Source of the DNA: an uncultured Gammaproteobacteria bacterium
Lineage (GTDB): Bacteria > Pseudomonadota > Gammaproteobacteria > UBA4575
NCBI GenBank assembly: GCA_951812785.1
Contig: OX638335.1
Location: forward strand, 2,037,712 to 2,101,711
Direction of reading: 5' to 3'
Length of the DNA stretch: 64,000 bases
Part shown: in pieces, positions 3,197-7,144 of the stretch
How positions within the stretch are numbered: the first letter of the stretch is position 1
Layout of the letters: each line of letters opens with the position of its first letter
Made by a program: the position numbers and the translations under genes
Notes under the pieces: generated by a model
What the model was told of the DNA's origin: nothing
The model's database searches: none
What the model saw: the letters and a program-made list of their open reading frames with translations, nothing else

Positions 3197-3852
3197 ATGA
3201 TTCGTCTTCAAAAACATTTGCAAGCGTTACCCTGAAAGCGGCGAAATTCTCGCTCAAATTGATCTGCAACTAGATGATGGTGAGATGTGTTTTATTACTG
3301 GCCCTTCTGGTTCTGGCAAAAGTACTTTATTAAAAGTAATTGCATTAATTGAAGCGCCAACCCGTGGCAAACTTTATTTTGACGAAAGGAACGTTACTGG
3401 TCTTAATAAATCTAGCATTTCTACTTTCCGCAAAAAAATGGGGTTAGTATTTCAAGATCACCGATTACTCAATGATCGTAACGTATTTGAAAACGTTGCT
3501 CTGCCACTGCGCATTAATGGATTTAATCCCAAGGACATTCCCATGAAGAACAAGAGCAGCTCTTGATAAAGTAAATTTGCTGAATAAAGAAAAATCTAGC
3601 CCCATTTCTTTATTAGGTGGCGAACAACAACGCGTGGGCATTGCGCGCGCTATTGTGCACAGACCGCGCCTATTATTAGCAGATGAGCCAACAGGTAATC
3701 TTGATCCAGCACTATCATCAGACATTATGAAATTATTTTTAGACTTTAATCAGGTTGGCGTCACCGTATTAATTGCCAGCCACGATATAAGCTTGATTAA
3801 AGATTTTAATAAAAAAATATTGAATTTAGATAACGGCCGCTTAGTGAATTAA
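3197..3852 (+). pseudogene. ftsE: Cell-division ABC transporter ATPase FtsE, broken by two +1 frameshifts
   Basis: FtsE is the ATPase of FtsEX, which couples the divisome to peptidoglycan hydrolases. Reading from ATG 3197, the protein is recognisable only if one A is removed from the A5 run at 3210-3214, giving NICKRYPESGEIL instead of KHLQALP then stop, and one A from 3546-3547, giving [13 protein letters not shown] instead of MKNKSSS then stop. Otherwise the ATPase is well kept: Walker A GPSGSGKST, Q-loop VFQDHRLL, signature [14 protein letters not shown], Walker [14 protein letters not shown]-loop ASHD. The lesions therefore look recent. As written, only pieces 3285-3566 and 3577-3852 can be translated. 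A base-calling fault is the alternative. Confidence 0.88.
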
Positions 3853-3861
3853 TCCCCAGTC

Positions 3862-4792
3862 ATGAAAAACAAAACCACTCAGGCAATTCTTTGGCTTGAG
3901 CATCATATCGATAGTTTTAAGCTCAGTTTTACTCGTGCAATCACCAGCCCAGTTTCATTTATTTTCACCGCATTAATGATTGCTATTGCGCTTTCAATTC
4001 CAATCAACCTTTATGTAGTATTTTCAAGTGTGCAGCAATTAACTAACCAGTGGGATAATAACAAACAAATTACATTGTTTTTAGCTGACAACGTTAACCA
4101 CAAACAAGCACAACAACTAGCAGAATCTATTGCCAGCAAAAGTGAAATTGCTAACGCTTCTGTAATAAACAAACAAACCGCACTAGATGAATTCAAGCGG
4201 CAAATGGGCTTGGACTCAATTGCAGAAAATTTACCGCAAAACCCTCTTCCTCATTTGATTATCGCTAATCCTGAAACAACCATTTCAGATTTCGCATCAT
4301 TACAAACATTAGAAAATGAGCTACGCAATATTAAGCAGATTCAACAAGTACAGTTTGATCTACTTTGGTTTCAGCGCTTACAAGCCATGCTAGCAGTGAT
4401 CAATCGCATCCAATGGATAGTCGGTATTGTGCTGTTATTAGCGATAGGACTAATTATTGCCAATGTGGTTCGCTGGGAAGTAGCAAGTCGTCATGCAGAA
4501 ATTGAGATTATAAAATTAGTCGGCGCCAGTGATGCTTATGTCAGACGACCTTTCTTAATATTCTGGTTTTTGGTTAGGAATCGCCGGATCCTTACTAGCA
4601 CTCATCATTGTTTCACTATGCAGTTGGCTTATCCAACAATCGACTACAAGATTATCTTCACTGTTTGGCAGTGATTTTCAATTAACCACACTATCAATAG
4701 GTTTGGCCAGCTTAATTATTATTAGTGTTAGTTTATTAGGTGTAGGAGCCGCATGGGTTTCGGTCACACATAAACTCAAACCTTACAGTTAA
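3862..4792 (+). pseudogene. ftsX: Cell-division ABC transporter permease FtsX, frameshifted near codon 233
   Basis: FtsX is the four-helix membrane partner of FtsE. The N-terminal part is normal (first membrane segment SPVSFIFTALMIAIALSI, periplasmic loop, second segment IVGIVLLLAIGLIIANVV). At 4557-4558 one extra A changes the frame. Without it, reading continues as LYSGFWLGIAGSLLALIIVS through two more membrane segments (IGLASLIIISVSLLGVG) to HKLKPYS and a stop at 4790-4792. As written, translation stops at 4674 after an unrelated tail, removing the last two helices. Both subunits of FtsEX are thus broken. The perfect family match after the shift argues for a recent lesion or a sequence error. 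Confidence 0.88.
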
Positions 4793-4815
4793 TGCTCTAC
4801 CAATCTTCAACAAGA

Positions 4816-5010
4816 TTATGAATCTGTTAATCGCCAATTGATTGCATCAGCAGTATCGAAGATTAACTCTCGAGTAAACGATTGGTGTTCTTGATCTTAA
4901 ATTCTTTTTTGCATATGCGGCAAACCTTTTTCCAACCATCCATCAATAGTTGATTGGTCTACACCAAAAATGTGGGCAAGATCAGCCTTGCTAACTTGGA
5001 CTCCTGGCAT
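4816..5010 (-). pseudogene. Remnant of phage terminase small subunit (Nu1-like N-terminal HTH)
   Basis: On the minus strand, ATG 5010 opens a 37-residue frame containing VSKADLAHIFGVDQSTIDGW followed by LEKGLPHMQ. This matches the winged-helix DNA-binding head of lambda Nu1-type terminase small subunits (pattern KKQLADIFGVS..TI..W...G.P). After an in-frame TAA at 4897-4899 the same frame continues with ELIFDTADAINWRL, corresponding to the YDSAAVIKW-like segment of Nu1, and stops at 4816-4818. The rest of the gene is missing. I read it as a decayed prophage fragment; the neighbouring bases carry no other recognisable phage gene. Confidence 0.6.
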
Positions 5011-5211
5011 GAATCTATCTCTTTTTTTACATTAACCGTGGTACAGAAAATTGGTCTATTGATCTCAGTATATGACACGGGGTAGCTAACGATAATTACC
5101 GACTATCTCACGATGTAGACCAGAAATCGGTATTGCTATCGCACCCTATGCGCTAAGACGAGCAATCCTTTTCTCTAAACTAGAGTATAGAGATGAACGG
5201 TACCTGAATAG

Positions 5212-5249
5212 CCTGCCAATACCCATAGTCAGCTTCTTCTATGGGCAGG
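5212..5249. repeat. Imperfect hairpin upstream of the rpoH promoter
   Basis: CCTGCC (5212-5217) and CCCATAG (5222-5228) pair with CTATGGGCAGG (5239-5249), giving an 11-bp stem with a small internal bulge on the left arm. No T-run follows, so it is not a clear terminator. It could end ftsX transcription weakly or be a relic of the lost prophage. Confidence 0.4.
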
Positions 5250-5271
5250 TATGGTCGATAAAGTGAACGCC

Positions 5272-5300
5272 TTGACCTGAGGCGCAGCGGGAACTATACA
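5272..5300 (+). promoter_or_regulatory. Sigma-70 promoter of rpoH
   Basis: TTGACC at 5272-5277 and TATACA at 5295-5300 are separated by exactly 17 bp. The predicted start (about 5306-5308) falls on the first bases of the CIRCE element, the usual geometry for HrcA repression. Confidence 0.75.
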
Positions 5301-5305
5301 GCTGG

Positions 5306-5332
5306 TTAGCACTCTAAAAAGGAGAGTGCTAA
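5306..5332 (+). promoter_or_regulatory. CIRCE operator (HrcA-binding inverted repeat) in front of rpoH
   Basis: TTAGCACTC (5306-5314), nine spacer bases, GAGTGCTAA (5324-5332): a perfect match to the CIRCE consensus (9-9-9). It overlaps the predicted transcription start of rpoH and lies 34 bases before the start codon. HrcA, the heat-inactivated repressor of groE/dnaK operons in many bacteria, is the expected ligand. Its gene is not in this window. Confidence 0.93.
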
Positions 5333-5366
5333 ACTAGCCTAATGTATCAATTGGAGAGTACAAGCC

Positions 5367-6230
5367 ATGAGTAACAGCTTGGTCATTTCACACCCACATG
5401 AGCTAACTTTAACAGCTGGAAGTCTGGATGCCTATATCAATGCGGCGCACCAACTGCCTATCTTGTCTGCTGAAGAAGAGCGGAACCTGGCGACTCGCCT
5501 ACGAGATCATCAAGATCTTGAGGCTGCGCGCACTCTAATTACTCACCACCTACGTTTTGTTGTGCGGGTTGCACGCGGTTATAGCGGTTATGGCCTGGCG
5601 CTGGCTGATCTTGTTCAGGAAGGCAACATCGGGCTTATGAAAGCCGTTAAACGCTTTGACCCCACCATGAATGTTCGTTTGGTGTCGTTTGCTGTGCATT
5701 GGATTCGTGCTGAAATGCATGAGTTCATTCTGCGTAACTGGCGCATTGTAAAAGTAGCCACCACCAAGGCTCAACGTAAGTTATTTTTTAACTTACGTAG
5801 TAAGAAAAAGAGACTTGGCTGGTTAAACAATGAGGAAGTAGAATCTGTCGCCATGGAACTGGGTGTTAAACCTAGTGAAGTACTAGAAATGGAATCTCGC
5901 CTTAGTGGTCAGGATTTAGGATTTGACGCGCCGAGTACCTCAGACGATGAAGACAGTATTTTTTCTCCATCTGCCTATTTAGCACATGAGAGCGAAGACC
6001 CTGCCACCAACTGCGAGAAAGACAATTGGTCTGGGCACCAGACTGATCGACTGTTAACCGCAATGGGTGAATTAGATGACCGCAGCCGTGAAATTATTCA
6101 GGCTCGTTGGTTATCTGACAAGAAGCAGACATTGCAAGAACTTGCTAAGCATTATGGCGTCTCAGCAGAGCGTGTACGCCAACTAGAGAGTAATGCGATG
6201 AAAAAACTTCAGTCTTATATAGAAGCTTAA
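5367..6230 (+). CDS. rpoH: RNA polymerase sigma-32 factor RpoH
   Basis: Heat-shock sigma factor directing RNA polymerase to chaperone and protease promoters. 287 residues with region 2 ([38 protein letters not shown]), the RpoH box QRKLFFNLR directly after it, and region 4 ([20 protein letters not shown]). A ribosome-binding site (GGAG) precedes the ATG. Its own leader carries a CIRCE operator, so transcription is probably lifted on heat stress by HrcA inactivation. It ends in a 4-bp convergent overlap with ctaB. Confidence 0.97.
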
Positions 6231-7144
6231 GATATAAACGGTAAATACCGATCTATTAGCAGTACTGCAAATAACACCATCAAATAAATAATCGAGTAAA
6301 CGAAGGTATTTGTTGCCTTCGCATTACTCTTAGTTATTTGCAAACTGATGGCGTAATACAAAAAGCCTGCATTCAGCAGCAATACACTCACTAAATAGAG
6401 CCACCCTGACATCCCGGTTAAAAATGGGAAAATGGTGATGACACACATCAACACTGTGTAGAGGGTAATTTGTAAACGCGTAAAGTCATCCCCATGTGTA
6501 ACAGGCAACATCGGAATATCTACCTTGGCGTATTCTTCCTTGCGATACAGCGCTAACGCCCAGAAGTGTGGTGGTGTCCAAGTGAAGATAATTAATAACA
6601 GTAGAAGTCCATTTGCTTCAACTTGTCCTGTGACAGCAGTCCAGCCGAGTAATGGTGGGGTCGCACCTGCAATACCACCAATGACGATGTTTTGTGGTGT
6701 CGCCCGTTTCAAATACATGGTGTAAATAATCGCATAACCAACTAACGAGGCAAACGTAAGCACCGCGGTAATAACATTAATCTTGATGATCAATATCGCC
6801 ATGCCGATGGCACCGATAATGCCAGCAAAGGCTAGTACGGAAGTTTTGCTTAATGACCCAGAGGGTAGTGGACGTAATTTAGTTCTATCCATTGCTGCAT
6901 CAATTCGGCTATCAGCCACATGGTTTATCGCGGCGGCAGAACTGGCGACGAGCCCGATACCCAAGGTGGCATAGATAAACATCGCTAACGCAACATTGCC
7001 AGGATCTGCCATCAACATACCGACAATTGCCGTAAACACCATCAACGCGACTACTTTTGGCTTACATAGCTCTAGATAGTCTTGCCAGCGAGCCAACGGG
7101 CCGAAGGCTAAACTCATTAATGATGAAGATGGTTTTGTAGACAT
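6227..7144 (-). CDS. ctaB: Protoheme IX farnesyltransferase (heme O synthase)
   Basis: UbiA-family membrane prenyltransferase that converts heme B to heme O, the first step to the heme A of cytochrome oxidase. 305 residues, several membrane helices, N-terminal [17 protein letters not shown], the prenyl-diphosphate Asp-rich motif [15 protein letters not shown], and the second loop [11 protein letters not shown] region after [12 protein letters not shown]. Last gene of the minus-strand cluster ctaA-ctaB. Also called cyoE in enterobacteria; the aa3-oxidase context favours the cta name. Confidence 0.95.

Follow-up and report, generated by a model that had tools for sequence, protein, structure and literature searches.

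A predicted RpoE promoter overlaps a CIRCE operator upstream of rpoH in an uncultured gammaproteobacterium and many of its relatives

Results

A perfect CIRCE element directly upstream of rpoH

We analyzed a 64-kb stretch of DNA (hereafter, the window) from an uncultured gammaproteobacterium, in which rpoH, encoding the heat-shock sigma factor sigma-32, lies downstream of ftsY, ftsE and ftsX. The features of rpoH and its upstream region are as follows:

5272..5300, forward strand: sigma-70-like hexamers, TTGACC-N17-TATACA; -35 hexamer not conserved
5290..5296, forward strand: predicted RpoE (sigma-E) -35 element, GGAACTA; distance from GGAAC to CIRCE conserved at rpoH
5306..5332, forward strand: CIRCE operator (HrcA site), TTAGCACTC-N9-GAGTGCTAA, no mismatches; site at rpoH retained across the genus and family
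5313..5317, forward strand: predicted RpoE -10 element, TCTAA, after a 16-base spacer; takes in the last bases of the CIRCE left arm and runs into the loop
5322..5326, forward strand: predicted start for the RpoE promoter, placed by the spacing of such promoters
5353..5358, forward strand: probable Shine-Dalgarno sequence, GGAGAG, read from the sequence
5367..6230, forward strand: rpoH, sigma-32, 287 amino acids; TIGR02392 at 410 bits (cut-off 323) and NF005143 at 430 bits

The segment at 5306–5332 reads TTAGCACTCTAAAAAGGAGAGTGCTAA and ends 34 bases before the rpoH ATG. It was the sole CIRCE match in the 64 kb when up to three mismatches were allowed (shuffled sequences gave a mean of 0.02), and a perfect CIRCE is expected by chance only ~1e-6 times per 64 kb. 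An earlier note on this DNA had reported a perfect CIRCE before rpoH, and that reading was correct: the operator has no mismatch, and TIGR02392 identifies the downstream ORF as a genuine rpoH.

Elsewhere in the window, ftsE is present as two ORFs (3285–3566 and 3577–3852), and the frame of ftsX (3862–4790) is lost near 4575, with the FtsX profile match ending at residue 233; in a relative of the same genus (G002), ftsX is open over a long frame at the corresponding place. The split ftsE and the interrupted ftsX frame stem either from indels introduced during assembly or from genuine gene disruption.

A search of the complete contig containing the window (2,158,385 bases) recovered an intact hrcA, a 347-amino-acid open frame (PF01628, E 7e-68) that stands first in the order hrcA-grpE-dnaK. 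At two or fewer mismatches the genome has three CIRCE sites, located before rpoH (no mismatches), before groES-groEL (one) and in the hrcA-nadK intergenic region (two); a fourth CIRCE-like match, at 556706, had three mismatches and was taken as chance. The earlier note had held that HrcA control of rpoH would fall if the complete genome lacked hrcA. Because the gene is present and open, that objection falls away, and the suggested search for further CIRCE sites turned up two good ones, before groES-groEL and hrcA. The genome also encodes RpoE (TIGR02939, 284 bits; cut-off 236), the gene for RseA (RseA_N) adjoins rpoE, and the region upstream of rpoE carries GAACTT-N16-TCATA.

CIRCE at rpoH accompanies hrcA

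CIRCE was found directly before rpoH in each of the five genus members and in all 17 family members that were assessable for rpoH and its upstream DNA. We then counted CIRCE before rpoH, at three or fewer mismatches, among 80 named relatives chosen by RpoH similarity, 78 of which had enough upstream sequence. The element was present in 39 of the 45 genomes with hrcA versus 3 of the 33 without it (Fisher 2e-12, with kinship ignored), and the latter three are metagenome-assembled genomes that are possibly incomplete. These counts in the named relatives point to CIRCE at rpoH as a standard companion of hrcA. Regulation of rpoH by HrcA, as originally proposed, is thus a sound prediction from sequence: the genome has an intact hrcA, the operator matches the consensus throughout and is conserved in the family, and its presence tracks that of hrcA across Proteobacteria. 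The implied rarity of the arrangement did not survive, as the element is present in most of the sampled genomes that bear hrcA, and one case was already in print in 2004: a perfect CIRCE at -51 of the rpoH start in Geobacter sulfurreducens, for which the same control was predicted (Rodionov et al.; PMC545781). That paper was the only one placing CIRCE before rpoH that our literature search on CIRCE with rpoH found, judging from the accessible parts of the sources.

Several features of individual sites were also observed. In a recurrent CIRCE variant at rpoH, CAGTC replaces CACTC or GACTG replaces GAGTG, the change affecting either a single arm or the two together. The variant was seen in several lineages, including Xanthomonadaceae (G001, G011, G028, G030, L012, L014, L023 and L033), and hardly ever at groES or hrcA, and it is perhaps a weaker or re-targeted operator. 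Pseudoalteromonas luteoviolacea (L039) has a perfect CIRCE before rpoH, and its sole HrcA-like protein gives a weak match (46.6 bits, in a 316-amino-acid frame), possibly that of a divergent HrcA. At one locus (L179; G028:C61:202567-202625) two CIRCE copies separated by 5 bases precede rpoH. One family member has a perfect CIRCE (G017:C4:4980-5006), yet no rpoH was found in it at E ≤ 1e-50; the gene is perhaps truncated or absent from the assembly.

A second conserved block resembles an RpoE promoter

Promoters recognized by RpoE have a -35 element of GGAACTT, a spacer of 15–17 bases and a -10 element of TCNNA, as in the form GGAACTT-N16-TCTNA. When upstream DNA was aligned on CIRCE, a second conserved block, GGGAACTTT, appeared at offsets -17 to -9, together with a conserved T at the first base of the CIRCE loop and a conserved A at the third. 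The -35 in the window, GGAACTA, differs from GGAACTT by one base. GAAC stood at offset -15 from CIRCE at 29 of 61 rpoH sites, and one base farther off at 6 more; by comparison, the 45 CIRCE sites found away from rpoH, each read in both directions, gave a single match at -15 in 90 readings (p 5e-13). The sole control match (G035:C6:23319; L148, L200) belongs to a degenerate CIRCE flanked by groES-groEL on one side and a divergently oriented dsbD-like gene on the other. Its GAAC points toward the dsbD-like gene, in which direction the site reads GGAACCG-N16-TCTAA, and it may therefore be a promoter in its own right; the same stretch may serve both repression of groES and RpoE-driven transcription of dsbD.

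To gauge how common the arrangement is in the class, we scanned 369 evenly drawn genomes for GGAAC followed by 7 to 17 bases (11 possible gaps) and then CIRCE. The scan returned 104 matches in 102 of the 369 genomes and 75 of the 272 genera (counts without kinship correction), and reversed control columns returned none. Despite the 11 gaps allowed, the gap was 11 bases in 78 of the 104 matches and 12 bases in another 13, and all 30 of the matches that we inspected lay directly before rpoH in the correct direction.

A fixed distance between CIRCE and both GGAAC and the conserved loop bases would also suit an extended HrcA operator that is no promoter at all. Three observations argue strongly against this idea. 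GGAAC is nearly absent at the 45 other CIRCE sites. Where GGAAC shifts relative to CIRCE, TCNNA follows GGAAC: five loci have CIRCE 2 or 4 bases nearer to GGAAC (gaps of 9 and 7), and in four of them TCTAA or TCACA sits correspondingly deeper in the loop, preserving the 16-base spacer between GGAAC and TCNNA. Finally, the GGAAC/TCNNA pair also precedes rpoH on its own where hrcA is missing: in Enterobacterales, which have no hrcA, several rpoH loci carry GAACTT-N16-TCTGA without CIRCE. Because TCNNA moves with GGAAC and the spacer stays at 16 bases, the two are partners of each other and not of CIRCE, and on the control CIRCE sites and the sliding -10 we rejected the extended operator as highly improbable. 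The base at the third loop position was A in 84 of the 91 loci with gaps of 11 or 12 versus 20 of the 90 control readings, and, among the rpoH sites, in 33 of the 35 with GAAC at -15 or -16 versus 8 of the 26 without.

Not every CIRCE at rpoH comes with the predicted promoter. GAAC stood at the conserved offset in four of the five genus members and in 9 of the 17 assessable family genomes, even though most of the family genomes without it still have rpoE; loss of rpoE is thus not supported as the cause of its absence. Most Burkholderiales loci likewise have CIRCE at rpoH without GGAAC. CIRCE at rpoH is thus more general than the RpoE promoter predicted to underlie it here.

At the Burkholderiales-type loci without GGAAC (L054, L056, L058, L064, L065, L073, L075 and others), the right arm and the bases that follow often read TGCTAATAT, an extended sigma-70 -10 element. 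When all sites were counted, the right arm and next bases gave TAATAT at 13 of 42 and TAAAAT at 14 of 42. Judging from these motifs, the operator may be merged with another promoter at such loci.

Sigma-70 hexamers and RNA elements

The earlier note had placed CIRCE at the start of a TTGACC-17-TATACA promoter. The hexamers are present in the window as first described (TTGACC at 5272–5277, 17 bases, TATACA at 5295–5300), and transcription by sigma-70 alone, starting at ~5307 and blocked by HrcA on CIRCE with no role for RpoE, would draw on their ideal spacing and on the retention of TATACA in two relatives of the same genus (G002 and G003). In those same two genomes, however, the -35 hexamer is lost, and neither hexamer is present in G004 or G008, yet all four relatives retain GAAC where the RpoE promoter would place it. 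Moreover, TTGAC showed no preferred offset from CIRCE at the 61 rpoH loci, and a promoter scan, whose criteria call for T as the sixth base of the second hexamer, found no sigma-70 site at threshold. Comparing the rpoH leaders of relatives, as had been suggested, therefore bore out the operator, which is conserved, and not the sigma-70 -35. We consider the promoter originally described to be probably wrong, since its hexamers are unconserved even within the genus and the conservation fits an RpoE-type promoter that would start near 5323–5325, at the right CIRCE arm; a sigma-70 promoter acting alone is rather unlikely.

A less exclusive possibility is that rpoH has two promoters, a sigma-70 promoter for basal expression and an RpoE promoter for stress, either of which HrcA would block. 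GGAACTA and TATACA overlap (5290–5300), CIRCE covers or follows both starts, and in E. coli rpoH is transcribed from several promoters that use different sigma factors. Set against this are the missing conservation of the sigma-70 hexamers and the need for two putative promoters. Additional use of the sigma-70 start is a tentative proposal, to which we give less than even odds; it is compatible with an RpoE promoter contested by HrcA.

The position of the start also matters for whether the inverted repeat might work at the RNA level, folding into a hairpin at the 5′ end of the transcript that influences its translation or stability. Transcription from ~5307 would give a 9-bp stem, whereas a start near 5323 would leave the left arm untranscribed and the leader only ~43 bases long. 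An Rfam search of 4700–6300 returned no match, including to the E. coli type of rpoH RNA thermometer, and the co-occurrence of the repeat with hrcA points to DNA binding. A role as an mRNA hairpin is accordingly very unlikely. An RNA thermometer, in which a structured leader and early coding region would conceal the ribosome site in the cold, is disfavored by the Rfam result and by a leader too short if transcription starts near 5323; folding the leader alone gave little information on this point.

Discussion

Our direct observations comprise the sequence elements with their spacing and conservation, the occurrence of hrcA, rpoE and rseA in the genome, and where the remaining CIRCE sites lie. 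We favor the interpretation, with a probability of roughly 70%, that the region upstream of rpoH is a composite switch, in which HrcA bound to CIRCE would occlude a predicted RpoE promoter. Here we infer HrcA binding, the sigma factor of the promoter, its start site and its response to heat. RNA polymerase with RpoE would read GGAACTA-N16-TCTAA (5290–5317), and HrcA bound at 5306–5332 would cover the -10 element and the start site (~5322–5326), blocking the promoter. Titration of HrcA by GroE and release of RpoE from RseA are established pathways for these protein families. Unfolded proteins in the cytoplasm would draw GroESL away from HrcA, causing HrcA to release CIRCE, and misfolding of envelope proteins would lead to the destruction of RseA, freeing RpoE. 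Transcription of rpoH would be strongest when the two releases coincide, with both needed for the full level. If a second, basal sigma-70 start exists in the overlapping hexamers, HrcA would block that too.

Release of HrcA would also open groES-groEL and hrcA-grpE-dnaK, with newly made sigma-32 adding a second wave. Because HrcA has sites at both chaperone operons, the chaperones would be controlled directly and, through sigma-32, indirectly. The simple two-step cascade of the earlier note, from repressor to sigma factor, is therefore not supported, as HrcA would act at all three nodes (hrcA-grpE-dnaK, groES-groEL and rpoH), and an envelope-stress input through RpoE had been missed.

Parts of this arrangement are already known: CIRCE at rpoH by prediction, and RpoE control of rpoH in E. 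coli. A survey of beta-, gamma- and epsilon-proteobacteria by Permina and Gelfand in 2003, reportedly the source of the CIRCE profile, may hold more cases of the former. The RpoE-dependent E. coli promoter P3 shares a GAACTT-N16-TCTGA-like geometry, carried by the enterobacterial loci compared here, but it has no CIRCE, its genome has no hrcA, and its distance to the start codon is 160–200 bases, as against ~75 in the window. Relative to the HrcA/CIRCE repression of chaperone genes (groESL and hrcA-grpE-dnaK), the locus is alike in its perfect operator near a predicted start, in a genome with hrcA and both usual targets, and differs in its predicted target, the heat-shock sigma factor, and in the merging of the operator with a predicted ECF-type promoter. 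The Geobacter rpoH also has a perfect CIRCE, at -51, with predicted HrcA control, but it belongs to a delta-proteobacterium, and no overlapping RpoE promoter is reported in the accessible part of the paper (PMC545781). Within the searchable literature, which leaves subscription papers out of reach, we found no account of CIRCE and an RpoE promoter as one overlapping element.

The textbook picture of sigma-32 control derives from E. coli, which is without hrcA. We think it somewhat favored that control of rpoH by an RpoE promoter containing an HrcA operator is ancient and widespread in Gammaproteobacteria (taken broadly, with Betaproteobacteria included), integrating envelope stress with cytosolic folding as sensed through HrcA and GroE, and that where hrcA was lost, as in Enterobacterales, the RpoE promoter stayed and the operator did not. 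If so, roughly a quarter of the sampled species of the class, or more, would make sigma-32 from a promoter at which RpoE and HrcA compete for the same bases, and three heat-shock circuits would meet within a few dozen base pairs.
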